Assembly: GCA_023251435.1 (NCBI GenBank)
Contig: JAHEYU010000023.1
Coordinates: 1 to 40,020, forward strand
Reading direction: 5' to 3'
Length of the DNA stretch: 40,020 bases
DNA from: Bacteroidota bacterium
GTDB lineage: Bacteria; Bacteroidota; Bacteroidia; Bacteroidales; Prolixibacteraceae
The notes beneath the pieces are model-generated. The model worked only from the letters and a program-made list of their open reading frames with translations. It had not been told where the DNA came from and made no database searches. Position 1 is the first letter of the stretch. Each line of letters opens with the position of its first letter. The position numbers and the translations under genes were made by a program. Of this stretch, positions 2,251 through 38,760 are shown piece by piece.

Positions 2251-5088
2251 TTATTTTAATTCTATTGTTTTTTTTTCTGTGATGTTTTGTATTACTCCCA
2301 TCAGTTTTCGCGGCTTTCCTGCGTTGTTTCGTTCAACAACCTGACCTTTATCAAAATACCATGCATATTGGCCGTCTTTTTTTCGTATCCGGTATTCAAC
2401 TTCGTAAAACGGACATAAACCCTGTAAATGGTTTCTCATTGATTGCATAGATGATTCCAGATCATCAGGGTGGAGCAGTTCTGTCCAACCTTCGAATCCC
2501 GGCTTTATTTCATCTTCTTCGTATCCCAACATGGCATACTTTCCTCTGCTTGTTTTAACCTTATTCAATTCGCAGTCCCATTCCCACCATGCCATATTGC
2601 CAATATCCATAGCCAGTGAAAATTTATCATTTAAATCGGCGGCAAATTGCTGCGACTCCTTTATTCCGCTAATGTTAACAAAGGTGACAATAATCCCTTC
2701 AACGGCATTGTCTGAAGTGCGGTATGGCAGAATTCGCATAAGATACCAAACTCCATTTTTATCTTTTATATCTCGTTCAATATGCTGCAAGGTGTCTGAA
2801 ACGGCGTAAATATCTTCAAGAAATTCAGGATACAGACTTCTTATTGCCAAATGCTGAATGGGGCGCCCTACATCAGTCGGTAGAATGTTGGTGAGCAAAG
2901 TTGCCACATCATTAATTTTTCGGATGTTGAGGTTGCGGTCGAGAAATAAGTTACCTGTCTGCGTATATTTCAACAGGTTGTCGATATCGGCATACAATTC
3001 GGTAAGTTCTTCAATTTTCCGGATATGCTCCGAATTTACAGTATAAAGCTCTTCGTTAACCGATTGCAATTCTTCATTGGTACTTTGCAGCTCTTCGTTG
3101 GACGCCATCAGCTCTTCGTTTGATGACTGCAACTCTTCGTTCGAAGTTTCCAGTTCTTCGACGGTGGCCTGTAAACTTTCACTTTTAAACTGCAATTCTT
3201 TTTCCAATTCCTCCACTCGTTCCTGATATTGAACATTGATATCTATGGTCTCGATGCGTTTTACTTCTTTGACCCTTTCTTTCTTATCTTTTTCGATGAA
3301 GGAGATGAGGTAATAAATCTCGCCTGTGCGCGTATTCGGTAATTTTTTACATGCCAACGATAAAGTTTTAACGTTATCAGTCGAACTGACATTTTCAATA
3401 ACAACCTCGCTGTTTTTTTTATCAGCTCTGCGTATCAGACTATTCACAATGATGCCAGTTTCGCGGGGCAACATTTTCAGCAGATTTAGAGACACCTGAC
3501 CGATGGGTAATGACACGTATTTGCCAACTTGATGAATGGTGTGAACAATTTCAAAATTCTCGTCGATAATTACAGATGTTGGTATATAATCGCCCAATAT
3601 CTGGTCGAAAATTCCGTCAAGAACCGAAGCTTTTGGTCTTGGGTTTCGAATATAAGTGCTAATATTTTTTAACTCGCTGTTGGTCTTGTGAACCGAATTT
3701 ATACCAAAATTTTGAATTTGAAGTGGCTTGAAACCTTTTTTTTGCCTGTAAATTTTCAATTTTGAATCGATCGTAGTAAAACCTTCCGATATATTTCCGA
3801 GCGATTCGCTGCTTCCCAAAAACAGGTAGCCCATTTCATTGAGCGAAATGTAAAACATTGACAGAATGCGTTGCTGAACATCGTTATTGAGGTAAATCAG
3901 CATGTTGCGACAGGTTATCAGATCTAATTTGGAGAATGGTGGATCCTGTAAAATATTATGGCGGGCGAAAATAATCATGCTACGGATGGTTTCATTGACC
4001 TGATAACCGTTTTCGCGACGGATGAAAAATTTTGAAATACGTTCGGGTGTTACATCCGAAGCGATGCTGTCGGGGTATAAACCAACACCTGCATATTCGA
4101 GTGAGGCGGTATCAAGGTCTGTGGCGAATATCTTCACATCGCAATAAATGTTGTTCTCGTTCATAAATTCGCGGAAAAGAATGGCCAGTGTATAGGCTTC
4201 TTCACCGGTTGAGCAGGCCGCTACCCAAACACGAAACTCGCGCTGAGTTGATCCTTTTCGTATAAGAGAACCAATGACTTCACTTTTCAGTTTTTTAAAG
4301 GCTTCCTCGTCCCTAAAAAAACGGGTTACGCCAATCAGCAATTCATTAAACAGAATATTGATCTCACGAACATTGTTGGCCAGAAACTTCACATAATCTT
4401 CAATATTTTCGAATCGGTTGATACTGATGCGTTTTTCCAATCTTCGGATAATGGTATTTTCTTTGTAATCAGAGAAATCGACCCCTTTAGAATCACGAAT
4501 AATTGAAATCACTTTGGACAACTGGTTATCGTCATTGTTGAGCAGCGCTTCTATTTTTTGCTTTTGCTTTACAAACGGATGCTTGATATAGTTCACCAAT
4601 TCATCGGCTAATTGGGCAGGAGGCAGAATAAAATCAACCATTCCGGTTGAAATGGAACTGCGGGGCATTCCATCAAATTTAGCCGATTGGTCGTCCTGAG
4701 CCATGATCATCCCACCATACTCTTTTACAGCCTTGATTCCTAAGGTACCATCGCTACCAGTTCCTGAGAGAATAATGGCGATGGCGTTTTTTTCCTGATC
4801 TTTTGCCAGCGATCGTAGAAAAATATCGATGGGAAGGTTTAATGTTCGGTTAGGCGAATGCTCGCTTAAATAGAGCCTGCCATGAAAAATAGTCATGTTC
4901 ATCCGGGGCGGAATCAGGTAAATATGATTTTCCTCTACAGGAATCCCATCGGTTACCCGGTGGATGACCATACTTGTATATCGGGCAAGTAACTCATCCA
5001 TAAGGCTTTTGTAATCGGGCGATAAGTGCTGTACAATTACATAAGCCGCTCCTGAATTAGCGGGCATGGCCTTAAAGAATTGCTCCAA
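2251..5088 (-). CDS. CheB-CheR fusion (methylesterase/methyltransferase) with coiled coil and two C-terminal PAS domains; 5' end frameshifted
   Basis: The longest frame with a legal start begins at a TTG (5088) and encodes 945 residues. In order: CheB methylesterase (about 1-165; catalytic His in VQHLSP at 21 and Asp in SGTGSDGT at 113), CheR methyltransferase (about 190-450; SAM motif [14 protein letters not shown] at 289-302, ATDLD at 322-326, TCRNMLIYL), the EELQS/NEELQ coiled-coil linker typical of CheB-CheR fusions, then two PAS domains ending in [10 protein letters not shown]. No kinase domain follows, unlike many relatives. Homologues begin with GxGASAGGL, which holds the catalytic serine. 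That motif is encoded here at 5121-5098, upstream of the TTG and in the same frame, but has no start codon of its own. The true start is probably ATG 5209 with a +1 base near 5137 (separate entry). CheB/CheR normally tune chemoreceptors; no receptor gene is present here, so a non-chemotactic signalling role is inferred. Confidence 0.85.
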
Positions 5089-5414: not shown

Positions 5415-6689
5415 TCAAACTACCTGCTTTGAAGGAACTACCAATTTAAATACAGTTCCGGAGCCTGCTTCTGAATGAACCTCAATTTTACCATTGTGCA
5501 AATCGTGGATGATTTTGTAAGTTATACTTAAACCCAATCCGGTTCCACTTCCGACTGGCTTTGTCGTAAAAAACGGCTCGAAAATCCGGGATTTAATTTC
5601 TTCCGGGATTCCATTCCCATTGTCTTTTACGCTGATGAATACGTTGTTTTCGTCGTTAGTAACCGAAAGGCAGACCTGTCCGCCATCATCAACAGCCTGA
5701 ACAGCATTAATTAACACATTGAGAATGGCCTGATTGAGCTGACCCGGGAAGCATTCAATCGTTAGACCCTCCGGAGAAGTAAACTGAAAGTCGATGTTTT
5801 TTTTGCTGATTTCGGCCCGGGCAATCGATATGGTTGAACGGATATTTTCAATCAGGTCAACTTGTTTGATGTCCGATTCGTCGAGGCGCGAAAACCGGCG
5901 AAGATCCTCCACAATGGTTTTCACCCGTTCAATTCCAACTTTCGATTCTTTGGTCATATCCGAAATATCTTCTTCCAGATAATCCAAATCGTTCTTTTCA
6001 CGGAGCTGTACAATGGTTTCATTTAATTCCTGATTTCCAACCGATTCAACTTGATGTTCGATTTGACGGATGGCATCAAATACTTCTGCGACATATTTAT
6101 CGAGCGAAAACAGGTTGCTGTAAACAAAAGCGATCGGATTATTCAACTCGTGCGCAACCCCAGCCACCAATTTACCCATCGCGTTCATTTTTTCGGAATG
6201 GATGAGCATTTGCTGGGTTTCCTTTAATTCAGCGAGCGTGGTCTGCAAATTCTTTTTTTCTTTAATGAGTTGCCGCTGCAGGTTGTTAACTTCCTGATTT
6301 AAAACGCTCATTTTTTTATTTTCCTCAAATAAATTGGGAACATCGGCCTCGGCATAAACCAATATCCGGTCATTTCTCCTGAATACCCTGGACTGAAGTA
6401 CGTAACTAACATCAGCATAATTTCCAACAGTCATTAAACCTTCAAAAACCAGTTCTTCGTTTTTGTCTGAAAGAAAGAATGAAAATTCAGGATTAATAAA
6501 AAAGTTTTTTGGTTCCAGCTGTATTCGATCGGCATCCAAAAAATAGCATAAAGCCGGATTGGCTTCAAGCAACCGGCCTTCAGCATTAAAAATGCCAATA
6601 GCAACTGAGTACCCCTGATTCGAAAGATCACAAATCAGGGGTGCCCAGTCGGAGATAAGATTATTTTCAGATAGCCTGCTTTGATCCAT
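5415..6689 (-). CDS. Soluble histidine kinase with N-terminal PAS-like domain (HAxxELNNP type)
   Basis: The 424-residue protein has a divergent PAS-like sensor (about 20-115; [20 protein letters not shown] is a typical PAS opening), a long coiled coil (about 122-165) and a kinase core with H180 in [12 protein letters not shown]-box [37 protein letters not shown]-boxes and [11 protein letters not shown] end the protein. This phosphoacceptor type (AHELNNP, F-box FFTTK) differs from the SHEIRTPLN cores of most kinases in the window. It has no membrane segment, so it is cytoplasmic. ATG at 6689. It sits in the run of genes starting at 9661, after the small helical protein and before CheB-CheR, and may read the neighbouring B12 protein; that link is inferred from position only. 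Confidence 0.92.
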
Positions 6690-6706: not shown

Positions 6707-6820
6707 TTGAGTTTCGATCTCTGTGTGACTCTGTGTTTTTACTCTGTGTAACTCTGTGATACATTAAAAATTACACAGAGATTAAAAGAGAAGACACGGA
6801 GTTTCACAGAGAAATCTCAA
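6707..6820. repeat. Imperfect ~110-bp inverted repeat of CTCTGTGT words
   Basis: The stretch between two operon genes contains TTGAGTTTCGATCTCTGTG at its left end and a near-complement ending CACAGAGAAATCTCAA at its right end, with internal words ACTCTGTGTAA and TTACACAGAG also facing each other. The whole element is a long imperfect palindrome. Its right edge overlaps the stop codon (6819-6817) of the helical protein gene. The form suggests a MITE-like or REP-like insertion; in RNA it would be a strong hairpin that could attenuate or protect the transcript upstream of the kinase gene. Confidence 0.65.
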
Positions 6821-7278
6821 TGTGCCGAAAGTGGGGCATCGAGCTCGTCTTCTGCCAGTTTATTAAAAGTAGGGATATTAATCTGCATCCAGTTGTAATA
6901 AGGATAAATTTCCTGAAAGCATTCGGGCGAAAGTTCCTTTTTATAGATTTCGATCCAGGCATTTAGCTGGGCGGCCCAATAGGTTGAGCTGAAATTGCGC
7001 GAACGATAAGCCCGGAAAACCCAAAGAACTGTATCAGTCAGAATTTCGGGTGAATGCTGGTTAAAAATGGATTCGAGGAAACGTGCATGATTGGCATGAT
7101 TGTCCTTCATCATTTCCACATTATCGGCTCCCACCATGTCTAGCAAGTCGGGACGTGCTTCCATTTTAGCATTCATCATAGCTACCAATGCCTCTTTTCT
7201 TGAGCCGAATTCGGCAGCGCTTCTTTCGCTTACCTGGTTAAGCTTTTCAGCAGTTTTAATTAAATCATTTCTGTCCAT
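6817..7278 (-). CDS. Small all-helical protein of unknown function, paired with the B12-binding protein
   Basis: ATG at 7278-7276 gives 153 residues; a TTG two codons earlier is possible but less likely. I do not recognise a named family. The sequence looks soluble and almost entirely alpha-helical, with an Arg/Lys/Glu-rich first half, a His cluster (H61, H64, H75) and an aromatic-rich second half (LWVFRAYRSRNFSSTYWAAQ, then W109, YPYYNW, about 85-130). It contains no cysteine pairs apart from one C120. It starts only 9 nt after the stop of the CarH-like B12 protein, so stable co-expression and perhaps a complex are likely. It might be a helical partner, adaptor or phosphotransfer-like protein, but no HPt histidine motif is evident. 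Function unknown. Confidence 0.85.
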   Translation of the reverse strand: MDRNDLIKTAEKLNQVSERSAAEFGSRKEALVAMMNAKMEARPDLLDMVGADNVEMMKDNHANHARFLESIFNQHSPEILTDTVLWVFRAYRSRNFSSTYWAAQLNAWIEIYKKELSPECFQEIYPYYNWMQINIPTFNKLAEDELDAPLSAH

Positions 7279-7287
7279 AAGCAAGTT

Positions 7288-7947
7288 TTAAAGATTAGTG
7301 TTGATTGTTTCAATATATTTTTCGAGCAGGTACAAATCGGATAAAAGAACCACATTCCCAAGGCGTTGTAATGCCTGGTCGGAAGCACGACTGAACGCCT
7401 GTCCGCCAACAATGATCTGTAAATCGGGGAATTCGTTTCGAAGTAATTCCAACATTTTCAGCAGGTTGGCAAAATTAAAATAAACGCTTAACGAAACAGC
7501 CAGTATATCGGGCTTAATTTCATGAATAAATTTAACCAGTTCCGAAGTGGGAATTCCTGTTCCGAGGAAAAAACTTTCCCATCCTTTCATTTCAAATACA
7601 TCGGCCACCATTTTGATGCCCACCTGGTGCTGCTCCCCTTCGACACAAGCCACCACCACTTTTTTGTTATATTTTCTGCCAGAAATTATTTGCTCAAACA
7701 ACTCATTCAGAATACCTTCAGTTATTGCAGTAGCCAAATGCTCGGTGGCTACCGTTATTTGGTTGGTTTCCCAAAAACGGCCAACTTCGTACAACGAAAC
7801 TTTAAAAACCTCCTCGTATAAATCTTTGATGGACGGGTTTTTCTCCAGATATTGCCGTGCAATAGCCGAACAATTGGAACGGTTGCCTTTCAATAGATTT
7901 TGTAAATAATCCTTTACTACCGGACTAAGATTTTGGGATTCCATCAT
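7288..7947 (-). CDS. Stand-alone cobalamin-binding protein with CarH/LitR-type photoreceptor motifs
   Basis: The 219-residue protein has a helical cap (about 5-90) and a Rossmann-like B12-binding domain (about 95-219). The binding signature is E105-x-H107-x2-G110, then 41 residues to S152-x-S154, then 26 to G181-G182, matching the base-off/His-on spacing with Glu in the first position as in CarH/LitR rather than the Asp of methyltransferases. The cap carries W59-x9-E69-H70, the signature that in CarH lies over adenosylcobalamin and couples photolysis to oligomer change. Unlike CarH there is no MerR DNA-binding domain, so the output must be through protein contacts. It starts 1 nt after the stop of the DUF1638-like kinase and precedes the helical protein, implying a partner in a light- or cobalamin-sensing kinase complex (inference). 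Confidence 0.9.
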   Translation of the reverse strand: MMESQNLSPVVKDYLQNLLKGNRSNCSAIARQYLEKNPSIKDLYEEVFKVSLYEVGRFWETNQITVATEHLATAITEGILNELFEQIISGRKYNKKVVVACVEGEQHQVGIKMVADVFEMKGWESFFLGTGIPTSELVKFIHEIKPDILAVSLSVYFNFANLLKMLELLRNEFPDLQIIVGGQAFSRASDQALQRLGNVVLLSDLYLLEKYIETINTNL

Positions 7948-7948
7948 A

Positions 7949-9661
7949 TTATTTATTTAATATTTGTGGTATCGTAAAATAAAACGTACTGCCCTTCCCC
8001 TCTTCGCTTTCAGCCCAGATTTGGCCACCGTGCTTATCGACAAATTCTTTACACAGGATCAAACCAAGGCCTGTACTGGGTTCGGCATCTGTGCCTTGAC
8101 GACTAACATTTACATCGATCCTGAAAAGATTATCAAGAATTTGCTTGCTCATTCCTATCCCAGAATCTTTTACTGAAAACAGAATAACATTTTCATCTGA
8201 CAATCTGGCTTCAACCTTAACTTCTCCACCTTGACGGGTAAATTTGATGGCATTCATCACCAGGTTTCGCATAATGGTTTTTAACATGTTTGGGTCGGCC
8301 TGTGCGGTTAATCCTTCCGGCAGGTTGACCTCTAAAATAATCATTTTATTTTCGGCAGCAAAACGGACTGATTCATCACAGTTCCCAATAAAATCTTTTA
8401 GATTTATTGATTCTGGTAGATAGGCTATACCGTCCTTCTGCAAGTGCGACCACTCCAGTAAGTTTTGTAGTAAATCGTTGGTCGATTTTGCTGTTTTATG
8501 AACAGAAAGCGTGAAATAGCGTAGATCCTCGGTTGAAAGATCGTAACTATCATCAGCCATCAAACCAGTCAGGCCTAATATCGAAGAAAAGGCGCCCCTC
8601 AAATCGTGCGAAATAATAGAGAAAAATTTGTCTTTGGTGGCATTGAGTTCGCACAAGGCCAAACGCGTGAGCTCAAGCTCTGAATATTTCCTGGCATTTG
8701 CAATAGCCAATCCACCAATTTGGCTGATAACCAGTTCCATCGGTTTATATTGAGGAATAAACTTGGGGAAGCGAACGTTGAGTACCTCGAACAGTCCCAG
8801 CGTTTCATTTTGGTGCCTAACCTCAATGGTGATGCTATCTTCAGGATTAAATATCTCTGAAGCTTGATTGGGTGTGTTCGTTTCAACTCCATTGCTATAC
8901 TGATGATAAACAAGCTGTTCGGGCGCGAAAAGCAAGTTTAGTAAATTTTTGATTTCCTGAATGATAAATTCTTCGTCGGTATGATCGATCAGATTACGGA
9001 GATGACTGAATACAAGGGAATAGTCGGCGCTTTCGCGGGCCAGCTTTGCAATCCGGCTATTCTGTGTTTTTCTTTCATTCTCATTTCTCCATTCCAAAAC
9101 AACCGAATCGAGGAATCGCTGGAGATGGTTGATTCCAACAGGCAAAATATCGTACGGAACACCCATGTATTCTGAAAGTGCGGTTAGATTGGTCAGGTAA
9201 TCACCAGGCAAACCGGTTTCTAGCAGAACAATTTTCCGGATCGATTCTCCAAAGAAGTTTTTGGCCGAATCGGAATCGAAGCCCCAATCGCGGATATGAC
9301 GGTTGTAATTGCGAAGCCATCCGTTTGAAACAAGATAATTACCTTGTTTGATGTAATGGTAAATTGTTGGCAGCGGAAAAAGAATCTCAAGGCATTGTTC
9401 GAGCCGGATAATTTCCACGTTTTTCAGATGGATATTTCTGACATTCTTTTTGCCCATGCAAGAACTTACAATTACTGCAATTTTTGAATACTGATACGGA
9501 TTGTCGCCGATAATTTCCACAATTCGCTCGTCGGTAACGAAGCAACCAGTGCAAACAGCCGGAAAACTTTTTAGAGTTACATCGGGATAGTTTCCTGCCT
9601 GCAGAATGTGGCTGATCTCTGGCGCCAGCGAATTACAAATTATTATACAAAGTCGTTCCAT
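7949..9661 (-). CDS. Histidine kinase with DUF1638-like N-terminal domain and GAF domain
   Basis: Of 570 residues, about 1-195 form an unusual N-terminal domain with cysteines at 5, 9, 37 and 40 (CTGC), 68 and 90, plus a NYLVSNGWLR motif (108-117) and IRKIVLLETGL (141-151). This resembles DUF1638, a family often found near corrinoid methyltransferase genes; I judge that match moderate. A GAF-like domain follows (about 225-325), then HisKA with H352 in ISHDLRGAFSS, ENLLEWS, N-box NLVMNAIKF, and STGLGLILC G-box to FTIP at the end. No membrane segment. The cysteines could bind metal or a cofactor. The core is closely related to that of the 15994-20391 kinase. ATG at 9661; the B12 protein gene starts 1 nt after its stop, so this kinase is its most likely partner. 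Confidence 0.9.
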   Translation of the reverse strand: MERLCIIICNSLAPEISHILQAGNYPDVTLKSFPAVCTGCFVTDERIVEIIGDNPYQYSKIAVIVSSCMGKKNVRNIHLKNVEIIRLEQCLEILFPLPTIYHYIKQGNYLVSNGWLRNYNRHIRDWGFDSDSAKNFFGESIRKIVLLETGLPGDYLTNLTALSEYMGVPYDILPVGINHLQRFLDSVVLEWRNENERKTQNSRIAKLARESADYSLVFSHLRNLIDHTDEEFIIQEIKNLLNLLFAPEQLVYHQYSNGVETNTPNQASEIFNPEDSITIEVRHQNETLGLFEVLNVRFPKFIPQYKPMELVISQIGGLAIANARKYSELELTRLALCELNATKDKFFSIISHDLRGAFSSILGLTGLMADDSYDLSTEDLRYFTLSVHKTAKSTNDLLQNLLEWSHLQKDGIAYLPESINLKDFIGNCDESVRFAAENKMIILEVNLPEGLTAQADPNMLKTIMRNLVMNAIKFTRQGGEVKVEARLSDENVILFSVKDSGIGMSKQILDNLFRIDVNVSRQGTDAEPSTGLGLILCKEFVDKHGGQIWAESEEGKGSTFYFTIPQILNK

Positions 9662-9670
9662 TTTGATATT

Positions 9671-9823
9671 TAACCGAATTTGCGGTTATTTTGTGTTCAT
9701 TAATTAGCAACGGCATTTATGCCGTTGGATAAATTGATATTAAAAATGGGCTTTAGCCCAAAATTATGACCGTATGGGCTAAAGCCCGTATTCGTTTGCA
9801 TTTTTTACATAGCCTGAAGGCTA
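9671..9823. repeat. Cluster of four small perfect hairpins (REP-like)
   Basis: Four separate inverted repeats stand in a row in the spacer upstream of the 9661 gene: TAACCG/CGGTTA (9671-9688), CAACGGCAT/ATGCCGTTG with a 2-base loop (9708-9727), GGGCTTTAGCCC/GGGCTAAAGCCC (9748-9787) and TAGCCT/AGGCTA (9810-9823). Such arrays resemble the REP/palindromic intergenic elements of Bacteroidota. The element covers part of the 518-bp gap between 9662 and 10179, where I see no open frame worth calling. It could end the upstream transcript or act as an mRNA boundary. Confidence 0.7.
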
Positions 9824-9862
9824 CGCCTAATGAAAAAGAACCAACAACCCGATAAATCCGTT

Positions 9863-10157
9863 CATTAATAAGATAATAAGGTCATATACTGGATTTTATA
9901 TACTTTCTACTGAGGTTATTTCCTTTAAAATTAGGTTTAAAAAAAACATTTGATCTCCTTTTCTTTAAACCTTATTTGCAATGGCTACCTCAGTAGAAAA
10001 TTTGCGATCACAGCCAAAACCTTATTACCTAATTTTGGCTTCATAGTATTCTGATAGTACTGGTTGTCGTATTGAACTTTCATAAATAAGGGAATAAGGT
10101 TATATCCTGTTTGTTATATACTTTCTACTGAGGTTATTTTCTTTAAAAATAAGGTTT
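9863..10157. repeat. Two ~76-bp direct repeats flanking one inverted partial copy
   Basis: Copies at 9863-9938 and 10081-10157 share the order AATAAGG, TATATACTTTCTACTGAGG, TTAT, CTTTAAAA and a terminal AGGTTT, with scattered differences. A shorter copy lies between them on the other strand at 9967-10003, containing ACCTCAGTAG and AAACCTTATTTG. The core CTACTGAGGT is present in all three (9907-9916, 10125-10134, and inverted 9987-9996). The element sits directly downstream of the MtaA-like gene and upstream of the 9661 gene. I recognise no transposase or known IS end; it could be a non-autonomous mobile element or a repeated regulator target. Confidence 0.7.
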
Positions 10158-10179
10158 TTTCATGCCATTCTATTTGGTT

Positions 10180-11223
10180 TTATCCGACGGTCTCTTCGTA
10201 AACCCCGTGGGTATGAACTGCTTCCGAAACGGCCATCAGCACCTCGTCGGATACCTGAAATGGTATTTCGCCGTGGTTGTCGGAAAGGATAAAACCTCCG
10301 CCAGGCGCTGCTATCTCAATCACTTTCCGAACATTTTCGGTGGCCTCTTCGGTTGTCCAGCGGCGCATTTCAATGCCATTGAGATTGCCCAGAAGTGTGA
10401 GTTTATTTTTATAGGCTTTTTTGAGTTTTGACAAATCTTCCATCGAACTTATTCCAACCACTGCTGTGCCGGTTTGCGGAACGAGGTCGGCAATTGGAAG
10501 ACAATTACCTGATGCAAAATGCGTTGCCGTTGGCCCGTTAAGCCGCGACAAGGTTTGTTGTGCAATGCGGAAGCCGGTTTCAAGATAAAGCTCCCGCGGA
10601 ATAATGGTCGAAGAAGAAACAGGGTCGAAATAACAAATGGCCGTAGCGCCGGCAGCCAACTGGGCATTGCTCCACTCCACGCAAAACTCCATGTTTACGT
10701 GCATCAGGTGATCGAACAGGTCTTTCCGGTAGTGCATTATCTCCAGGTATTTTTCGAATCCCATTTGCATTATAGGCAACGAAAATGGCGACATGGCCAC
10801 CCCAATGATGGGGATTTCACTTTTAGCTTTTTTCTTCAACTTTTCAATAGCGAAAAGTACTTTGTGCAGCATTTTCGATTCGCTTATTTTAGGCGGTTCC
10901 AATTCAAGTATTTTTTCGATGTTCTGGATAAAAGGCAAACCTGTATTGGGAGGACCATCCTCACTGTAAATCACTTCGCCACCAAAGGCTTCAATTTCGA
11001 GCGGGGCGTAAAAGAAAGCATAAAAACAATCGTTGCGGTATTTTTTCTGTAACCTGAGTTGCCCTTCTACCACATTTTCGCCTTTCGAAAAATAGTCTTT
11101 AATGCTCATTCCCAATTCTTTTGCACCATGCATGGTAAGCAGCAGAAATTGGGGAACGCGATCAGGTTCGTTGTGCCCCAAGGTAGTGAGCACCCGTTCC
11201 ATTGATGTCATTTTTGTCTTCAT
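10180..11223 (-). CDS. Uroporphyrinogen decarboxylase / MtaA-CmuA family protein, atypical metal site
   Basis: The 347-residue protein has the family opening (MTSMERVLTTLGHNEPDRVP), GVAMSPFSLP (141-150), FDPVSSS (199-205), and the C-terminal LGNLNG and GGGFILSDNH blocks of a UroD-like TIM barrel. Members that move methyl groups between corrinoid proteins and thiols bind zinc through an HxC motif and a distal Cys. Here the HxC position reads H235-F-A237 and the distal site reads SDNHGEIP (314-321), so the usual Cys ligands are missing. It may use other ligands (for example H235, D315, H317) or act without thiol chemistry. Its ATG overlaps the corrinoid-protein stop by 4 bp (ATGA), a strong sign of coupled translation. 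No methyltransferase-I gene is nearby, which argues against a plain catabolic role. Confidence 0.88.
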   Translation of the reverse strand: MKTKMTSMERVLTTLGHNEPDRVPQFLLLTMHGAKELGMSIKDYFSKGENVVEGQLRLQKKYRNDCFYAFFYAPLEIEAFGGEVIYSEDGPPNTGLPFIQNIEKILELEPPKISESKMLHKVLFAIEKLKKKAKSEIPIIGVAMSPFSLPIMQMGFEKYLEIMHYRKDLFDHLMHVNMEFCVEWSNAQLAAGATAICYFDPVSSSTIIPRELYLETGFRIAQQTLSRLNGPTATHFASGNCLPIADLVPQTGTAVVGISSMEDLSKLKKAYKNKLTLLGNLNGIEMRRWTTEEATENVRKVIEIAAPGGGFILSDNHGEIPFQVSDEVLMAVSEAVHTHGVYEETVG

Positions 11224-11861
11224 CCCATTTCCTCCACGAGTTTAGTTACCATTTGAATAGCTTCCGACGAATCTTTTCCAAAACCATCGGCGCCCACTTC
11301 TTTCCAAAGTTCTGCATCGAAGCGGAACGGTGCTCCGCCCACCAAAATTTTTACATCAACATCTTTCAGTTTTTCCTTCAATTCTTTGATATGAAGGGCT
11401 GATGGTAGCATCAATACCGACAGTAGCATAATCCGGATTTGTTCCTTTTTGATTGTCTCAACTAACTTGTCGATTGAAAGTCCTCCGCCCAGATCAGTCA
11501 ATTCGAAGCCTGAAGCCCGGAGCGATGAATACACAATTCGCTTGCCCAGTAAATGGTAATCTTCGAATACGCCAATGGCCATTTTGGGCTGATGAATGCG
11601 AACCGGACTTTGGGGCGGAAGAATTTTATCGATCAGTTCTTCGCAAATAATCCCACTCATATACACCTGCGAAAGCGCAACCGAGCCATCTTCCCAGTCG
11701 TCACCAATTTTTTTCAGTGTAGCTGTAATAATCTTACTTGCTATCTCAATGGCGCTTCCTTTCCCGGATGCCTCCATCAGCAGTTTTTCGGCTGCCTCTT
11801 TGTCGAGCAACAACAGCGATCGCTCCAACTCATCACAGTAAAACTTTATATTTTCCATCAT
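11220..11861 (-). CDS. Corrinoid-binding protein, MtaC/MtbC/MetH-like
   Basis: The 213-residue protein has a helical cap (about 1-85) and a B12-binding domain (about 92-213) with D101-x-H103-x2-G106, then 41 residues to S148-V-L150 and G175-G176 (VGGAPF). This is the standard base-off/His-on motif, with H103 as lower axial ligand. The length matches small corrinoid shuttle proteins of methanol, methylamine or methoxy-aryl methyltransferase systems. It starts 8 bp after the stop of the 8xPAS kinase and overlaps the MtaA-like gene, so kinase, corrinoid protein and MtaA-like protein form one transcription unit. It differs from the second B12 protein (7288-7947), which has ExHxxG and the W-x9-EH cap. 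Likely role: methyl or corrinoid carrier whose state is read by the signalling proteins (inference). Confidence 0.92.
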   Translation of the reverse strand: MMENIKFYCDELERSLLLLDKEAAEKLLMEASGKGSAIEIASKIITATLKKIGDDWEDGSVALSQVYMSGIICEELIDKILPPQSPVRIHQPKMAIGVFEDYHLLGKRIVYSSLRASGFELTDLGGGLSIDKLVETIKKEQIRIMLLSVLMLPSALHIKELKEKLKDVDVKILVGGAPFRFDAELWKEVGADGFGKDSSEAIQMVTKLVEEMG

Positions 11862-11869
11862 TTAAGATT

Positions 11870-14800
11870 TTATTGTTTTGGTAACGTAAAATAAAAGGTA
11901 CTGCCTTTTCCAACTTCGCTTTCGACCCAGATTTTACCTCCCATTAATTCAATCAGTTTTTTCGAGATGGCCAGCCCAAGTCCGTTCCCACCATATTTGC
12001 GTGTGTACGATGCCTCTACCTGACGGAAGCGGTCGAATATCTTTTCATGGTAGTCGGCAGGAATGCCAATTCCAGTATCTTTAACGTAAAACTCAATCAT
12101 CCTGTCAGATTGCCTGCATCCTATTTCGATGTATCCCTGGGCTGTAAATTTCAACGCGTTTCCAATCAGATTATTAAACACCTGAAACAAACGTTCTTTA
12201 TCGGCAGATACAACTACCGGTTCGTTGGATGATTTACATGCACAAATACACTTTAGTGATAGTTGCTTTTCTTTTGCGTTGATTTCGTGCATAATCGTTA
12301 GGTCGTCAAGAAGTTGAGCGACCTTGAAACTGGAGGTGCGTATGGTGATTTCACCCGATTCAATTTTTGAAATGTCAACAATATCGCTGATGATAGTCAA
12401 CAGGTTATTCCCATTGGTAACAATGTGGCTAACAAACGTATTTTTCATTTCTGCATCATAAGCCTCATCGCCCAATAATTCAGAAAAACCAATAATACTA
12501 TTGAGTGGTGTGCGTATCTCGTGGCTCATGTTGGCGAGGAAGGCAGATTTCAGCCGATCACTTTCTTCGGCTCTTTCTTTTGCTGCAATCAGATCTGCTT
12601 CCATTTGTTTACGCAAACTAATGTCTTCTTTAATAGCGATATAATTGATAATTTCTCCTTTATCGTTCTTAATGGATGTCATGGTAGCCCACTCCCAATA
12701 CAAATCACCGTTTTTCTTTTGATTCAGGAATTCGCCCCTCCAAACATCTCCACTTTGCAGGGTCTGCCAAACCTGCCTGTAAACTTCATCAGGCATTTTT
12801 CCCGATTTTAAAATTCGTGGATTTTTCCCGATTACTTCCTCGGCTGAATAACCGGTGATTTCAGTAAATTTTGGGTTGACATACTCAATGCTTCCATCTA
12901 AGTCGGTTATTACAATCGTCGACGGACTTTGCTCAATACTTTTGTTCAGTTTGCTGATTTGTGCTTCGGCTTTCTTTCGATCGGTAATATCCTGAACAAT
13001 CCCATGCAGCAAACTTGGCTTGCCATTTTGGTCGAATTCAATGTCACCGGCCTCTGCCCAAACTACGCGAATTGATCCATCTTCCCAAATCACCCTGTAT
13101 TCAAGAGAAATTGGCTTTGACTCCTTAACAACAGATGCATTGCTCTTAAATACTTTTTCCTGATCGTCGGGGTGAATGCGTAAATGAATAACCTCGTTCA
13201 AGTCGCCGGTGAAAGTTGATTTATCAATTCCAAAAATGCGGTACATTTCGTCGGACCATATCAGCTTGTTGGTTTTAATGTTCCATATCCAGTTCCCCAC
13301 ATGAGCCACCTGTTGTGCACGTTTAAGTTCTTTTTCCGACTGAAGGATTTTTTCTTCCGCCTTTTTACGTTCAGAAATATCGCGCATGGAATCCATTATA
13401 TAAGCAGGAACGCCATCGGCATCAGTGACCAGTGACAGGTTAAACTCGGCCCAAAAAGTGCTGCCATCGCGACGAACCACTTCGGACTCAATGTTCTTTA
13501 ATTGTCCGGCAGCAAAAAACTCATCGGATAAGGACCAGAACATTTCATGGTATTTGGGCGCTATCAATGAATATGCGTTGATTCCAATCAGATCGGTAAA
13601 CAAATTTACCCCGATCATTTCGGCCTTGTGCTGGTTGGCAAACAGAATGTTGCCTTCCAGATCGAGCAGGGATATTCCGTCGGGCGATGACTCAACCAAA
13701 GTCCTGAATTTCTTTTCACTTTCCTTGATTTCGATTTCAGCCAGCTTAATTTGGGTAATATCGCGCTGAATTCCAAAATGCCCGGTAATTCGCCCTTCGG
13801 CGTCGTACAGGCAAATGTAGTCACCTTCTATAACGATAGGCTCTCCATTCAATTTGCGTTCGTCGGTAATGGTATGCAGTTTTCCATCGTTGTACAACTT
13901 TCTCCATTGATCTTTTCCATGCGCAACATTATGCGCAAAAAAATCAGCAGGAGTGAGATTCATAAAATCGGTTTCAGCTGCTTCGTATTGATCGAGCATG
14001 GCCTGATTGATTTTCGTAATCTTCTGGTGCGAAAAAGCATGGTCGAGTAATTTCTCTTTGTTAGCTTCTTCGTTCCAATTAATGGGTTCATCCAGCATCA
14101 TAAAAAAGAAACCATCAAGCGACTGGTTGAAAAACGCATCCATTTTTTGGTTAACTTCCAGAATAACCGCTTCAGCCTGTTTTCTTTCAGTAATATCACG
14201 GATTATTCCGCCAATCCCCTTTTTGCTCCCCCGCAAGTGCAAGGGGAATTTGGTCGTTTCATAGATACGATCGCCCAATTGCTCTTCAACAGTAAACGCT
14301 TCGCTGGCCTCCAATGCTTTTTTATCGGACGATTTGCAGGGGATGATTTTCATTTGATCCGTTAATTCCTCGTCTGTTTTGCCGATCAATTCAACAGGAG
14401 TTTTTCCGAAAAAAGCAGCCATCGCATTGTTGGCCATCAAATACCGGCGATGTTCGTCTTTTACAAAAATCATGTCGATGTCGGCATTTATAAATGCACT
14501 GTACCTCTCTTCGCTTTCTCGAAGCTGTTCTTCTGTTCTTTTTCGTTTAGTTATATCGCGCACTACTCCCTGAAGCCTCCCGTCTTTCAACATTTTCCCG
14601 CTAATTTCAACATGAATCACACTTCCATCCTTGCATGTAAGTTGACGTTCGGCAAGTACTTGTGGCTGCTCTTTTAGTTCTTTATATTTTATTGGATTAG
14701 CGGTAATACCTTCCTCTCCAACTAAATCTTTAATGTTCATTTTCAGAATTTCCTCACGCGAATACCCAACCATTTTGCACCCGGCTGTATTTACATCCAG

Positions 14801-15775
14801 GTAATTCCCTTCACGATCAGTAATAAAAATACCATCGGAAGCTTGTTCAAACAATGTACGGTATTGATATTCGCTCAAGTTTAATTGCTTATCACTTTGA
14901 GCCCTTTTGGTAATGTCGTTGATAATTGCCAGGAACAAAGGCCGTTCACCCTGGTGGTCAAGCTGCAAGTGCACTTCAACGGGATACAAGGTTCCGTTTT
15001 TACGGCGATGAAAAGTTTCGAACACCAACTTTTTTTCCAGGCCCGAAAGCAATGGCTCCACTGCTTTTCTGAAGGAATCTTCAGTGTATTCAGGTTTTAT
15101 GTCGTACGGAGTCAGCGATTTTATTTCTTCGGAAGTATAGCCGAGGTTTTCGAGCGCACCTTTGTTTAGATGCTCGAATTTGAATGTTTCAGCATCGAAA
15201 ATATAAATCTCATTCAGGCTGTTCTCGATAATATTCAGCAACCTGAATTGTTCCTGTTCGGCCTTTTTCCGCCGTGTGATGTTTTTGACAGAAGTAATAA
15301 AATACAAAGGATTCAGCTCTGCATCGCGTTGCAGAAAGGTGGAAACTTCAGCATAAACGATTTCACAGTTTTTATGGATATACCTTTTCTCGAAGGTTGC
15401 CTTATCGAGTTTGCCGGACAATAAATCGGAAGTAATGCTATCGGTAAATTGTTCGTCGTCATTGTGGCTTATGTATCTCCAGTTTTTATTGACCAGCTCT
15501 TCGTGACTATACCCCAGCATAGCGCAAAACGCCTGATTTACCTGCAAAGAACCATCAATACCGGTTATCGACATGCCTAATGGCGAATGCTCAAAAACAA
15601 AACGAAACCGTTGCTCACTTTCGAGAAGTGTAGCCCGAATTCTCACCTCACTTTCAGGCAAGGTTTTTTCGTCTAACGACTGTTTGTTAATAACATGTTT
15701 TTGCTTTTCTGCTTTCCCTTCATTCGTCCGGTTGGATTTTCCTGAATGGTTAGAATCAGATAGGTTAGAACTCAT
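11870..15775 (-). CDS. Soluble multi-PAS histidine kinase (8 PAS domains)
   Basis: The 1301-residue protein has about eight PAS/PAC repeats (roughly residues 50-1060), each ending in a DITxRKxAE-type linker, and a kinase core with H1085 in SHEIRTPLN, NNLIGNALKF, DTGIGIP and GGNGLGLAIS. The fifth PAS is an unusual variant (SLDGFFFMMLDEPINW, GDYICLYD) shared with the 33206-38497 kinase. The eighth (ITGYS..E, KNPRILKSG, EWATMTSI) is like flavin/redox PAS domains of the NifL type and also recurs in other kinases here. No membrane segment or receiver. It is the first gene of a unit with the corrinoid and MtaA-like proteins, so it is a prime candidate to sense their state. ATG 15775 is supported by an AGGAGGAG site 5 nt upstream. 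Confidence 0.93.
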   Translation of the reverse strand: MSSNLSDSNHSGKSNRTNEGKAEKQKHVINKQSLDEKTLPESEVRIRATLLESEQRFRFVFEHSPLGMSITGIDGSLQVNQAFCAMLGYSHEELVNKNWRYISHNDDEQFTDSITSDLLSGKLDKATFEKRYIHKNCEIVYAEVSTFLQRDAELNPLYFITSVKNITRRKKAEQEQFRLLNIIENSLNEIYIFDAETFKFEHLNKGALENLGYTSEEIKSLTPYDIKPEYTEDSFRKAVEPLLSGLEKKLVFETFHRRKNGTLYPVEVHLQLDHQGERPLFLAIINDITKRAQSDKQLNLSEYQYRTLFEQASDGIFITDREGNYLDVNTAGCKMVGYSREEILKMNIKDLVGEEGITANPIKYKELKEQPQVLAERQLTCKDGSVIHVEISGKMLKDGRLQGVVRDITKRKRTEEQLRESEERYSAFINADIDMIFVKDEHRRYLMANNAMAAFFGKTPVELIGKTDEELTDQMKIIPCKSSDKKALEASEAFTVEEQLGDRIYETTKFPLHLRGSKKGIGGIIRDITERKQAEAVILEVNQKMDAFFNQSLDGFFFMMLDEPINWNEEANKEKLLDHAFSHQKITKINQAMLDQYEAAETDFMNLTPADFFAHNVAHGKDQWRKLYNDGKLHTITDERKLNGEPIVIEGDYICLYDAEGRITGHFGIQRDITQIKLAEIEIKESEKKFRTLVESSPDGISLLDLEGNILFANQHKAEMIGVNLFTDLIGINAYSLIAPKYHEMFWSLSDEFFAAGQLKNIESEVVRRDGSTFWAEFNLSLVTDADGVPAYIMDSMRDISERKKAEEKILQSEKELKRAQQVAHVGNWIWNIKTNKLIWSDEMYRIFGIDKSTFTGDLNEVIHLRIHPDDQEKVFKSNASVVKESKPISLEYRVIWEDGSIRVVWAEAGDIEFDQNGKPSLLHGIVQDITDRKKAEAQISKLNKSIEQSPSTIVITDLDGSIEYVNPKFTEITGYSAEEVIGKNPRILKSGKMPDEVYRQVWQTLQSGDVWRGEFLNQKKNGDLYWEWATMTSIKNDKGEIINYIAIKEDISLRKQMEADLIAAKERAEESDRLKSAFLANMSHEIRTPLNSIIGFSELLGDEAYDAEMKNTFVSHIVTNGNNLLTIISDIVDISKIESGEITIRTSSFKVAQLLDDLTIMHEINAKEKQLSLKCICACKSSNEPVVVSADKERLFQVFNNLIGNALKFTAQGYIEIGCRQSDRMIEFYVKDTGIGIPADYHEKIFDRFRQVEASYTRKYGGNGLGLAISKKLIELMGGKIWVESEVGKGSTFYFTLPKQ

Positions 15776-15993: not shown

Positions 15994-18900
15994 TTACTTC
16001 GTTTCTTCAGTAATTCCAGGTAATGAAAAATAAAACGTACTGCCCTTCCCAACTTCGCTTTCGACCCAAATTTGGCCACCATGTTTTTCTATAAATTCTT
16101 TGCACAGCAGTAATCCCAATCCACTACTTGGCTCTCCATCGGTACCTTTTTGGTTTATTTTTACGTCAATTCTGAAAAGGGTTTCGACAATTTCCCGGGT
16201 CATGCCAATGCCAGTGTCACAGCAGGACACTTCGACCCAATTCTCGGGTGTCGTTTTGGCAGAAAGAGTCACCAATGCTCCTTTCAACGAGTACTTTACT
16301 GCATTTGAAATCAGGTTTCGAATCACTGTTTGAAGCATATTATTGTCGGCAGTTACCCAAAGGCTTTCTAAAATATCAGTAACTATTTCTATTCCTTTAT
16401 TTCGGGCAGTTTCCTTTAGCATTTCAATACTTTCATCCGTTGCCTGCCTTAACAGAACTGGTTCTTGCTTGAATTGAATGGTACCGCGTTGTACCTGCGA
16501 CCATTGCAACAGGTTTTCGAGTAAACGATATAGTGAAGATGCCGACTTACTCATACTGACCGCCATTTCCTGAACCTGCGACATGGTAAGATTGGGCAAT
16601 TCTTCGGCCATAATTTGTGTCATTCCAAGGAAACTGTTAAACGGGCTACGCAAATCATGCGCTAAAATGGAGAAAAATTTATCTTTTTCAGCATTGAGAT
16701 TTTGAAGTGTTTCGTTTGCTTTAAGAAGTGCGCCCTCTGCTTGTTTGCGCTCTGTAATATCTAACCCAAAAGTCCAGTTTTGTTTTCCAATGGGCTTAAA
16801 ACCCCACACGATGTTTTTCGTTAAACCATTTTTGCATGTAACCACAACTTCCATTGGTTCAATTTCTGATTGATTTTCAATGGCCTGTTTTACTTTTTGT
16901 TGCCATTCCTCAGCAATCTGTTTTCGGTAATTTTCGTCGGGATAAGCAATTGGCCACCATTCATTTGCTGATGGAACTTCTTCGATCTCATAGCCAAACA
17001 GATTAATGAAAGTAGGATTGATATATTCAGCTTTTTGCTCAATACCTGCTGACATGTATATAGCCAGTGGTGAAGTGTCGGCAATTGCTTTAAATTTCAA
17101 TTCGCTTTCGAGTAGGGCTTCCTCTGCTTGTTTCCGCTCTGTAATATCGGTATGGGTTCCGAACATCCGAATTACCTTCCCGTCTGCATTTTTCATTGAT
17201 GATGCCTTATTGAATATCCAGCGATATGATCCATCTTTATGACGAAATCTGAACTCCAGTAAGAAATGTCCGACAGGATTTTCAAGGTATTCCTGAACGA
17301 CATTCAGGCAGGCTTCTTTTTCGTCGGGGTGAAGATGCTCAATCCATGTAGCAAATTCATTTTTTAATTCGTGATCATTGTAGCCAATTTGATTTTTCCA
17401 TTGTTTTGAATAATACACTTCATTAGCTTCAACATTCCAGTCCCAAATGCCCTGTTCCGTTGCATCAGTTGCAAGAGCATATCTTTGCTCGCTTTCTTTC
17501 AGTGCTTCCTCTGCCTGTTTACGATCGGTAATGTCTCGGTTACTCTCACGTCGTCCCAACCACTTACCGTCATGTCCAAAAACCGGAGTGCAGGAATGAC
17601 TTATCCAGCGAATATTGCCATCTTTGGTTATTATCCTGAAATCGTAACTTGAATGATCAAGGTGGTCTTCATGAAATACTGTCTGTAAATGTTCTTCAAC
17701 TTTAATCAGGTCGTCGGGGTGTGCAATTTCTTTAACGAGATTAGGATTGTTAAAAAATTCTTCCGTTAAATGTCCGGAAATACGCTCGCATGATGGAGAA
17801 ATATATCTATATTTTTCATCGGGCGTAATCCATGCTTCCCAGTCGTGAGTATAGTTGGCCAGTGTCCTAAATTTCTCCTCGCTCAATTTAAGCGCTTCAT
17901 CCACTTCATGCCACCTTCTTATTTCTTGCATCTTATTCAGCAATGAAGTAATTCCCAGTGCATCATCTGTTGTGTATTCATCTGGTTTATTGGCAATTGA
18001 TATTACAGAAACTACGCGCCCATTTTCAGTTAACGGAACGGCCATCATACGGGTAATTGGCACATGACCCATTGGAATACCTTTTTTTGCTGGATGAGCC
18101 TCGATGTAATTATTCACAAAAACAGGTTGGCGTGTTCGGATACATTCACATAACAAACCTGTTTCTGAAACACGAAAACTTAAAGGACCCGTATCCATTT
18201 TACACTGTTCCATAACACCTTTAGACCAACGGACTACTTTCAGTTCGGTTTCTTCGCGATCGACCATTCCAACAAACGAAAACTCACTCCCGGTCATTTT
18301 TTGGCTGGCTTCGAGAACAAAGTCGAGTATTTCGGCAAATGGCTGATGGTTCATTTCATTTAATTCTAATAAAGCCTGAAGCCGGATGGTGTGTTCGCTC
18401 AATGCTTTTTCGGCCTTTTTTGCTTCGGTTACATCAATCGATAACCCAACAACACTTGTTACCTGGCCATTCGCATCAAATATAGGTTGGTAGTTGGTAT
18501 TAAATTTCAGGTTTCCCAATTCGAGCCCTTCAGTTTTTACCAAATTGCCGGCAAGTGCCTTTCGCAACCCCTCAAGAACCTCTGGAAAATCTTTATATGC
18601 ATCGAATACCGACAATCCTACAACCTGTCCGGGTTTTAATCCCAATTTTTCGAGACCTTTTCCTTCGGAGAAGGTAAAAATGCCGTGGGCATCGAGGGCA
18701 AAAATTACCTCCTGAACTTCTGCTGTGATTGTTTTTAGAAATTGTTGGTTTTCAATTACCGCTCTTTCAGCTCGTTTGCGATCTGTGATGTCGATCAATG
18801 TCCCCTCAATGGTATCTCCGTCTAATATTAGACTGTATAAAAAAGTCCTTTCATTGCCTTTTTGTGTCAGGACATTGGCCTCAAATCTTTCTACACGGCC

Positions 18901-27465: not shown

Positions 27466-27903
27466 CTAATCACTTAAGAAAGGTTGGTTTAATACGCTCC
27501 AGTAAAGTTCTATTTGCGTGGCCACCTCAATAAATTTATCGAAACTAACAGGCTTGACGATGTATGAGTTGGCGCCTAACTGATAGGATTTTTTCACATC
27601 GCCTGATTCGAAAGAAGTAGTGAGCACCACTACCGGAATGGTTCTGAATTCAGGATGTTTTTTAATTGCTTCCAACACTTCGAGACCATTAACTTTAGGT
27701 AAGTTTAAGTCCAGCAGTATCAAGACAGGAACGGTTTCGCCATTTTTCCATTTTTCGATGTAGGCCAGCGCTTCTTCACCATCCCGGGCTATTTCAATTG
27801 GATTGGTAAGTTTCCGCGTTTTAAATGCACGCAGCGTGAGGTCGAGATCAACCGGATTGTCTTCGACCAGCAAAATAGGTTGGTTCAAATTTGTTGTTCT
27901 CAT
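27466..27903 (-). CDS. Single-domain response regulator (Rcp1-like REC)
   Basis: The 145-residue protein is a receiver only: E14-D15 pocket, D65 in LLDLNLPKVNG, T95-T96, K117 in VKPVSFDKF, and the LTLRAFKTRKLTNPIEIARDG pattern seen in regulators that pair with phytochrome-type kinases. It starts 2 nt after the stop of the PocR-4xPAS-GAF kinase. That kinase has a phytochrome-like core (SHDLKAPL), so the two are a convincing cognate pair. With no output domain it must act by protein contact or as a phosphate carrier. Confidence 0.95.
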   Translation of the reverse strand: MRTTNLNQPILLVEDNPVDLDLTLRAFKTRKLTNPIEIARDGEEALAYIEKWKNGETVPVLILLDLNLPKVNGLEVLEAIKKHPEFRTIPVVVLTTSFESGDVKKSYQLGANSYIVKPVSFDKFIEVATQIELYWSVLNQPFLSD

Positions 27904-38497: not shown

Positions 38498-38760
38498 TTT
38501 CTTCCCTCCCTTGTAGAGTTTCTGATTTAAAGAATCTGACAAATATTAAAAACGATTACGCAAAAGCATTTGGATAGTCAATTGCAAAAAGCGGTAATTC
38601 TTAAATTTCTATTGTACTAATTTTTACCCTTTTCCGCTTTAAATGTAGTAAAATTAGATTTAAATGGAAATGCGTTTAAAAATGAACTATCTGATTTCTT
38701 TTTGTATTTTTAAGGTGACGTTTAATTCGAACTGAGAGTAAACTATTTAAAATTTTTCTC
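38498..38760. other. Divergent intergenic region
   Basis: This AT-rich spacer separates the minus-strand kinase unit from the plus-strand hydrolase, so it should hold promoters for both. I see TTTG-containing and TA-rich words, but no pair with the TTTG / TAnnTTTG spacing of Bacteroidota promoters that I would defend. No hairpin or repeat stands out apart from the ribosome binding site at its left edge. Confidence 0.5.
38504..38512 (-). promoter_or_regulatory. Shine-Dalgarno site deciding the giant kinase start
   Basis: On the minus strand AAGGGAGGG precedes AAGAAA and the ATG at 38497, a normal spacing. It supports ATG 38497 over the TTG 45 bases upstream. Confidence 0.7.

Follow-up and report, generated by a model that had tools for sequence, protein, structure and literature searches.

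Two groups of described systems resemble the genes analysed here. In the MerR-B12 photoreceptor repressor CarH and in the photocobilins, the residues of a W-x9-EH motif cap the adenosyl group of the cofactor and the histidine of an ExH motif binds cobalt; the adenosyl-capping residues have been published as a signature of light-responsive proteins (accessible parts of PMC10979010 and PMC11796333). The other group comprises corrinoid proteins that are encoded beside UroD-family or DUF1638 proteins. The available portion of PMC9768040 describes the mec cassette, in which a kinase with a PocR domain, a receiver, a corrinoid protein and MecE, a UroD-family protein of the CmuA/MtaA type proposed as methyltransferase I (MTI), are neighbours. 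In Phaeobacter inhibens, a DUF1638 protein is needed for B12-dependent methionine synthesis and tracks with a RamA-like protein (PMC5764234, as far as its accessible text goes). Genes related to both groups stand side by side in a stretch of 40,020 nucleotides (contig JAHEYU010000023.1, assembly GCA_023251435.1) from a bacterium of the family Prolixibacteraceae (Bacteroidota), which is referred to here as the window. In the interval 15775-6817, a first-pass annotation had proposed a corrinoid-coupled sensory system formed by six genes, two of them encoding B12 proteins.

All six genes were found on the minus strand at the annotated positions, and open reading frame (ORF) checks together with Pfam searches confirmed the kinases, the corrinoid protein with its DxHxxG motif (Cor) and the UroD/MtaA-like protein (UroD). 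The best joint explanation of the locus, which we consider rather probable, is that two separate neighbouring corrinoid-based input modules lie within an array of histidine kinases. Module A comprises Cor, UroD and a kinase carrying DUF1638 (DUF1638-kinase), and a multi-PAS kinase lies upstream of it. Module B comprises a CarH-like cobalamin protein (B12L), a small all-helical protein (SMALL) and the kinase 6689-5415, which lies outside the previously annotated interval. That both B12 genes are linked to kinases is more than chance because the association recurs in relatives; conservation of this linkage across genomes had been anticipated and was found for both B12 proteins beyond the window. 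The partner grouping had to be revised: the DUF1638-kinase, which had been placed with B12L and SMALL, goes with Cor and UroD, whereas the partner of B12L and SMALL is the kinase 6689-5415. Module B is the better supported of the two systems and is most likely a light sensor, and module A is best read as a corrinoid-state sensor. The idea of a sensory rather than catabolic role was right in outline, except that there appear to be two systems and that the one containing B12L is probably for light.

SMALL homologues were detected at 74 loci in genome contigs of several phyla. Within the family of the source organism, 19 of 100 genomes had one, in one case as a weak broken match. The closest relative in a named record (92%) comes from a Prolixibacteraceae (Bacteroidota) metagenome genome. 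According to the record titles, the hosts are Bacteroidota of several kinds, Desulfobulbaceae, Desulfamplus, Desulfosarcinaceae, Spirochaetaceae, Ignavibacteriae, Balneolales, Elusimicrobia, Aminicenantes, Competibacteraceae, Chitinispirillum and Oligosphaera; many of the records are metagenome bins and individual taxon names may be wrong. Neighbourhoods were counted at 73 loci, L102 being excluded as its SMALL gene is cut by a contig end. B12L lies within 300 bp of SMALL on the same strand in 64 of them (downstream of it in L094), one kinase separates the two genes in four, and B12L is 7.3 kb away in one. The remaining four have no B12L above the threshold, two of them with a weak or broken B12 piece. 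A kinase starts between −150 and +400 bp from the end of SMALL at 55 of the 73 loci, and 53 of these 55 kinases also score above 20 bits against the N-terminal 165 residues of the kinase 6689-5415. The 18 loci that lack a kinase directly downstream include five near a contig end and four with the kinase between B12L and SMALL; nine show neither feature. From these counts, the recurring unit is B12L-SMALL-kinase. SMALL and B12L are separate genes in the window and at the mapped loci and were found fused only in the anaerobe Ilyobacter polytropus, where a single protein, scoring 97 bits with the SMALL profile, contains both and is followed by a GGDEF gene. The possibility that SMALL is a chance ORF was rejected in view of the 74 loci and of eight invariant columns in the alignment of 69 SMALL sequences (68 of the 74 loci are included; L033, L037, L059, L091, L100 and L102 were left out).

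B12L consists of a cap and a Rossmann cobalamin domain, and Pfam recognised no other domain in it. Its closest PDB chains are those of the photocobilins (8j2w, 8j2x and 8j2y; E ~1e-17), followed by CarH (5e-9). The window protein contains W59-x9-E69-H70 and E105-x-H107. The alignment comprised the window and 70 loci (71 rows). L101 is a fragment which falls short of the W-x9-EH region, and L053, L059, L084 and L096 were excluded for having no B12L above 100 bits (the neighbours in L084 and L096 scored 49 and 46 bits, respectively). All 70 rows that extend into this region, window included, have the W, E and H of W-x9-EH. In the ExH lower-ligand motif, Glu is kept in 71/71 and His in 70/71 rows. 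The other elements of the published signature give a mixed picture: GxxW (Gly, 70/70) and GxxxP (Gly and Pro, 71/71 and 68/71, respectively) hold, but the Gly of GxxH is mostly lost. Judging from the AdoCbl (adenosylcobalamin) photoreceptor signature, light is the likelier signal of B12L. A further protein of this kind is encoded on another contig of the source genome (C145): the MerR-like protein of L111 (4160-5032) has a C-terminal B12 domain with W-x9-EH and ELHELG, and this CarH-like regulator is likely a second B12 photosensor of this genome.

SMALL itself has no match in Pfam at 0.01 or in NCBIfam at 0.1, and E-values up to 1 gave scattered single matches at chance level. Its AlphaFold model built from 69 sequences reached a predicted local distance difference test score (pLDDT) of 94.4, and globins or phycobiliproteins made up 49 of the best 50 of 502 Foldseek matches. 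The template modelling (TM) scores were 0.68/0.76 for smURFP, with a root-mean-square deviation of 2.5 A, and ~0.63 for allophycocyanins. The SMALL profile was also compared with 16 photoglobin-type domains from 12 Bacteroidota genomes, G035, two Azospirillum and Skermanella; 15 of these domains come from ORFs with W-x9-EH and the remaining one (L193) from a 173-aa ORF without this motif. The alignment of the two families spans 112 columns and contains a single gap of one residue (hhalign P 0.004). The score of 24.0 was equalled by none of 150 column shuffles (best 20.5), and reversing the profile gave 12.9. For the Streptomyces (SasPcob-like) domain, the comparison with SMALL was confined to weaker tests. 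Trp86 of SMALL (69/69) aligns with a Trp kept in all 16 photoglobin domains, and Met57 stands where Cys is found in nine of them. SMALL looks like a photoglobin relative with an altered bilin site, and B12L and SMALL together look like a two-gene photocobilin-like receptor. In G035, a genome of the same genus in which no SMALL was found, a photoglobin-type B12 fusion protein (L171, 6029-7087) is followed by a 398-aa kinase.

Module A was delimited by a survey of DUF1638, which was found in 13 genes of 10 of the 140 family genomes (L033 and L150, and likewise L037 and L149, are apparently the same contigs, being equal in length, and were counted once). Ten of the 13 genes, two of them in the source genome, stand next to Cor and/or UroD. 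Cor was seen in nine of these ten module A loci (L189 begins inside UroD) and UroD also in nine (it is lost in L150). A kinase core is next to or fused with DUF1638 in nine loci as well; the exception is L166, where the next ORF (317 aa) shows a PAS match but no kinase core and ends 64 bp away from the start of the contig. Fusions of DUF1638 with the kinase were seen in the window, L149, L150 and L189, and in broken frames in L151; L110, L161, L162, L166 and L188 carry DUF1638 as a gene of its own immediately ahead of the kinase or ORF. As in the window, Cor is preceded by a large kinase in L149, L150, L110 and L161, with one PAS gene intervening in the latter two. No other single observation hints as strongly at corrinoid-state sensing in module A as a kinase with an integral DUF1638 domain. 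The former description of the window protein as a DUF1638-like GAF kinase holds for DUF1638, HisKA and HATPase_c, whereas the middle region, the supposed GAF part, has no Pfam match at 0.01. The DUF1638 model derived from three sequences (pLDDT 52.8) was too poor for use.

Several neighbours of these genes deserve mention. L110 is a second Cor-UroD-DUF1638-kinase operon of the source genome, led by a bacterial globin gene (PF01152), behind which a multi-PAS kinase and PAS proteins are encoded; L161 shares this arrangement, with the globin recognised by eye. In L189, a protein with a MEDS (DcmR sensory) domain (4013-4672) is encoded directly after the DUF1638-kinase gene. In L150 (G106, 9213-9851), the end of Cor runs into residues resembling the C-terminal end of UroD, which suggests a deletion of UroD and may be real or an assembly error. 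Another contig of the source genome (C14; L109, 127-4603) encodes a corrinoid protein and a long UroD-like protein together with genes that by eye resemble those for homocysteine methyltransferase and CobW; these are probably ordinary split methionine-synthase-type genes.

Cor is an MtaC/MttC-like protein with cap and Rossmann domains and MttC/MtmC-like PDB matches. The D, H and G of DxHxxG are present in 8/8 aligned relatives, and the EH of the photosensor motif is absent from all eight. Close Cor orthologues (at least 64% identity) occur in 4 of the 140 family genomes and some match to Cor in 27. The best NCBIfam models for UroD are of the MtaA/CmuA type, all below their cut-offs (109.5 vs 244, 95.3 vs 235.4, 81.6 vs 400 and 66 vs 600 bits), and the PDB relatives of its profile include MtaA (4ay7) and, weakly, CdmB (9rui). 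We take the zinc site of MtaA and MtbA to be His-x-Cys followed further on by Cys. The zinc His of MtaA is kept in 7/7 UroD proteins and the first zinc Cys is replaced by Ala or Gly in 7/7; the alignment of UroD with 4ay7 reaches this first Cys only. The stretch FILSDNHGEIP/FIFASSNADIP, where the second zinc Cys is expected, contains no Cys, and L161 has one Cys near its end. Because the zinc Cys is absent, the UroD proteins are unlikely to be MtaA-type thiol methyltransferases.

These features bear on a different view of module A, namely as a small cassette for catabolic or biosynthetic methyl transfer via a corrinoid which, like mec, has UroD as its methyltransferase and two-component regulators of its own. 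We rate this as possible but rather unlikely. The intact DxHxxG motif of Cor, the structural relatives of UroD and the gene composition of mec all speak for a cassette, as do the PocR domains of two large window kinases (27906-31181, 177.6 bits; 33206-38542, 165.1 bits), a domain which the mec kinase also has according to the accessible part of PMC9768040. Against it stand the loss of the first zinc Cys and the fusion of DUF1638 to the kinase in several loci. In addition, the 99.9% complete source genome (5.73 Mb) has no match to MttB (PF06253) or to the RACo/RamA activase (PF14574), with Methanosarcina acetivorans giving positive controls for both. Neither methyltransferase II (MTII) nor activase was noticed beside the ten module A loci, which were inspected by eye, with Pfam applied to ten chosen neighbours only. 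The first-pass annotation had argued from the lack of MTI. This is correct for MttB, and the argument is weak since UroD-family proteins have themselves been proposed as MTI (accessible part of PMC9768040) and the genome-wide search covered neither MtaB nor other MTI families. Besides the PocR domains, three further facts weigh against the sensory reading of module A. All ten loci come from a single family, DUF1638 was found in 2 of 295 genomes of a class-wide sample (the source genome included), and three DUF1638 genes stand alone (L185, L186 and L187).

The proposed light-sensing function of module B likewise has points against it. In B12L, the Gly of GxxH is kept in just 8 of 71 rows, the window being one of these. 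Sequence comparison of SMALL with PDB and Pfam, using one sequence and profiles of 16 and 69 sequences, gave nothing convincing; no Foldseek match had E <0.001 and photocobilin chains were absent among the best 50 of 502 matches. The hhalign probability of the SMALL-photoglobin alignment was just 8.6%. The correlation between pairwise distances of SMALL and B12L (r 0.67; none of 999 permutations of the 70 protein pairs was as high) speaks for module B, but shared descent alone could produce it. Asn60 of SMALL (69/69, with Asp59 beside it) occupies the position where the photoglobin domains have Asp (16/16). The 26-residue spacing to Trp suggests that this Asp corresponds to Asp270 of SasPcob, a biliverdin contact; in AbDPcob, biliverdin is bound more weakly once that Asp is replaced by His (available text of PMC10979010). 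Asp59 was considered as the bilin Asp of SMALL and rejected, as a recount of the alignment places Asn60 there. Heme oxygenase (PF01126) was detected neither in 18 SMALL-bearing genomes (G099 with its weak broken SMALL match was left out of this set) nor in 13 genomes with photoglobin-type fusions. As a bilin source it was therefore dismissed, and its absence from both sets cannot separate the two-gene from the fused forms; a biliverdin chromophore is doubtful for both. With Asn60 in place of the bilin Asp and no heme oxygenase found, bilin binding by SMALL is doubtful. Finally, many SMALL hosts look, from their record titles, like sediment bacteria, for which light is no obvious signal.

The sediment hosts and the lack of PF01126 would also suit an alternative that we regard as unlikely, in which B12L and SMALL sense the supply of AdoCbl, or oxygen or redox conditions acting on cobalamin, and the W-x9-EH pocket reports AdoCbl occupancy only. 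The residue following Trp in B12L, the site of the bis-His histidine of CarH, is Glu in 67/70 rows, and the bis-His light state of CarH is not expected. Any light state of B12L would, with this Glu, be photocobilin-like rather than CarH-like, and SasPcob also lacks a bis-His state and is still light-responsive (accessible part of PMC10979010). The adenosyl-capping residues present in 70/70 rows, which are the published light-responsive signature, argue against mere supply or redox sensing. A further point for the preferred reading of module B is the PF01923 adenosyltransferase, which was found in 15 of the 18 SMALL-bearing genomes, the source genome among them.

That modules A and B form one functional unit here, with the DUF1638-kinase reading both corrinoid proteins, is improbable: the modules abut with a 1-bp gap and their neighbourhood recurs in L149 and L150, but L149 has an extra kinase between them, no B12L or SMALL was seen near module A in the L110, L151, L161, L162, L166, L188 and L189 stretches (several cut by contig ends), and within the examined flanks module A genes occur at 2 of the 74 SMALL loci only (L033 and L037). 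Consequently, a single six-gene system, as originally annotated, was rejected. Among the genomes searched, the full set recurs only in G109 of the same genus (L149) and, without UroD, in G106 (L150), and module A occurs without module B.

For the preferred reading of two neighbouring modules, the following course of events can be proposed. We infer the AdoCbl cofactor of module B, its light response and its control of the kinase by analogy with CarH and the photocobilins. In the dark, B12L would bind AdoCbl, placing His107 below the cobalt and covering the adenosyl group with Trp59 and Glu69-His70; SMALL, as a photoglobin-type globin, would dock over the loaded B12L. Green light would break the Co-C bond, the B12L-SMALL assembly would change and the adjacent kinase would be switched. 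A stand-alone photocobilin that alters a cyclase in trans (accessible text of PMC10979010) provides a precedent for such action. In module A, UroD may bind a methyl donor or acceptor and Cor may carry the corrinoid; the two would together control the corrinoid's methylation or oxidation state, which DUF1638 would report to the kinase. Cofactor identity, protein contacts and all effects on kinases are thus predictions from sequences, models and analogy in both modules. The combined proposal is put forward tentatively, with the odds leaning against it in full: methylation or oxidation of a corrinoid protein would serve as a two-component signal, loaded or unloaded by an altered UroD and read by the DUF1638 of the kinase, and alongside it a two-gene B12-globin photoreceptor would drive kinases, its globin being bilin-free or containing a tetrapyrrole made in another way.

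Together with the module kinases, the surrounding 38 kb encode ten histidine kinases as well as a CheB-CheR-PAS protein and a receiver, all on a single strand (Table 1). From the kinase 11870-15775 to SMALL, the six genes are separated by 8, −4, 518, 1 and 9 bp. Two copies (85%) of a 78-nt direct repeat lie in the large gap between UroD and the DUF1638-kinase, and a terminator-like GGGCTAAAGCCC hairpin is situated at 9760-9747; terminator-like matches across the region are at chance level (12 found vs 10.8 in shuffles). The same junction is an 11-bp overlap in L151, 2 bp in L189 and a 342-bp gap in L149. The gap in the window looks like a later insertion of small repeat elements in the genus of the window.

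Table 1 Features of the window (positions in the 40,020-nucleotide stretch; aa, amino acids)
Feature	Positions	Strand	Description
Histidine kinase	524-2188		
CheB-CheR-PAS protein	2251-5088		
Module B kinase	5415-6689	-	Histidine kinase, 424 aa; Pfam HisKA and HATPase_c; N-terminal part PAS-like by eye
Module B SMALL	6817-7278	-	153 aa, all-helical; likelier start ATG 7278, start in ORF list TTG 7284
Module B B12L	7288-7947	-	Stand-alone CarH-like cobalamin domain; Pfam B12-binding_2 and B12-binding; W-x9-EH; EGEQHQVG
Module A DUF1638-kinase	7949-9661	-	570 aa; Pfam DUF1638 (37.5 bits, cut-off 27), HisKA and HATPase_c
Gap within module A	9662-10179		518 bp; 78-nt direct repeat, inverted repeats, terminator-like hairpin
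Module A UroD	10180-11223	-	UroD/MtaA-like protein, 347 aa; Pfam URO-D, 182.5 bits
Module A Cor	11220-11861	-	Corrinoid protein, 213 aa; Pfam B12-binding_2 and B12-binding; DYHLLG (DxHxxG)
Multi-PAS histidine kinase upstream of module A	11870-15775	-	1301 aa; Pfam PAS_9 in 7 stretches, HisKA and HATPase_c
Histidine kinase	15994-20391		
Histidine kinase	20432-24880		
Histidine kinase	24919-27213		
Receiver	27466-27903		
Histidine kinase	27906-31181		PocR sensory domain
Histidine kinase	31202-33172		
Histidine kinase	33206-38542		PocR sensory domain

If these readings are true, module B would be a natural two-piece photoreceptor with a dedicated kinase for a B12-globin receptor and with a broad distribution over Bacteroidota, Desulfobacterota and other groups. 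The globin partner, which has neither a Pfam family nor the bilin Asp, makes the role of the globin in light testable. Module A would feed the methylation of a corrinoid or the redox state of its cobalt into histidine kinases, and DUF1638, which has a known phenotype and no known function, would gain a concrete testable role. A literature search found no description of the module A arrangement (coverage of subscription papers was poor). The B12L-SMALL-kinase module was not found described in the accessible photocobilin, photoglobin and BBAG literature, where a mention in an earlier photoglobin survey is possible. The photoglobin paper of Schneider et al. 2022 reportedly surveys gene neighbourhoods.

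Among known systems, module A shares the combination of a corrinoid protein and a UroD-family protein with the mec cassette and MtaABC-type systems, and a kinase with mec, which also has corrinoid-reactivation genes. It differs from them in that no separate MTI, MTII or RACo was found beside it, that DUF1638 is fused to or directly precedes the kinase and that the first zinc Cys is absent. In the split methionine synthase systems (Price et al. 2018, PMC5764234, accessible part), DUF1638 (PF07796) is encoded beside a corrinoid protein as in module A, but there it co-occurs with a RamA-like protein and serves methionine synthesis, whereas in module A, in a genome without a RACo match, it accompanies UroD and a kinase.

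Module B has its relatives among B12 photoreceptors. B12L shares with CarH the cap and Rossmann cobalamin domain, the Trp, the Glu-His pair and ExH; CarH contains a DNA-binding domain and the bis-His histidine, whereas B12L lacks such a domain and mostly has Glu at that site. Side-by-side separate globin and B12 genes are already in print, since the globins of BBAG-2 and of Myxococcales are encoded beside genes for B12-binding proteins (available portion of PMC10151467). Those globins are accompanied by bilin reductase and/or belong to genomes with heme oxygenase, and some have a Cys motif, while in module B a kinase follows, PF01126 was not detected and Met57 is found. In the accessible text of PMC10151467, a kinase, a setting without heme oxygenase and the SMALL globin family were not found for the BBAG-2 and Myxococcales clusters. 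The photocobilins SasPcob and AbDPcob (Zhang et al. 2024, PMC10979010, accessible part) and the photoglobins come closest, combining a CarH-type B12 domain containing W-x9-EH and ExH with a globin-type domain and a signalling output. SMALL is too distant for sequence matches to their known members, and the photoglobins have the bilin-contact Asp where SMALL has Asn60. Both domains of the photocobilins are parts of one polypeptide, whereas module B distributes them over two genes with the kinase downstream. As the one-chain architecture is lacking, and the bilin Asp with it, we class module B as a photocobilin-like two-gene variant.

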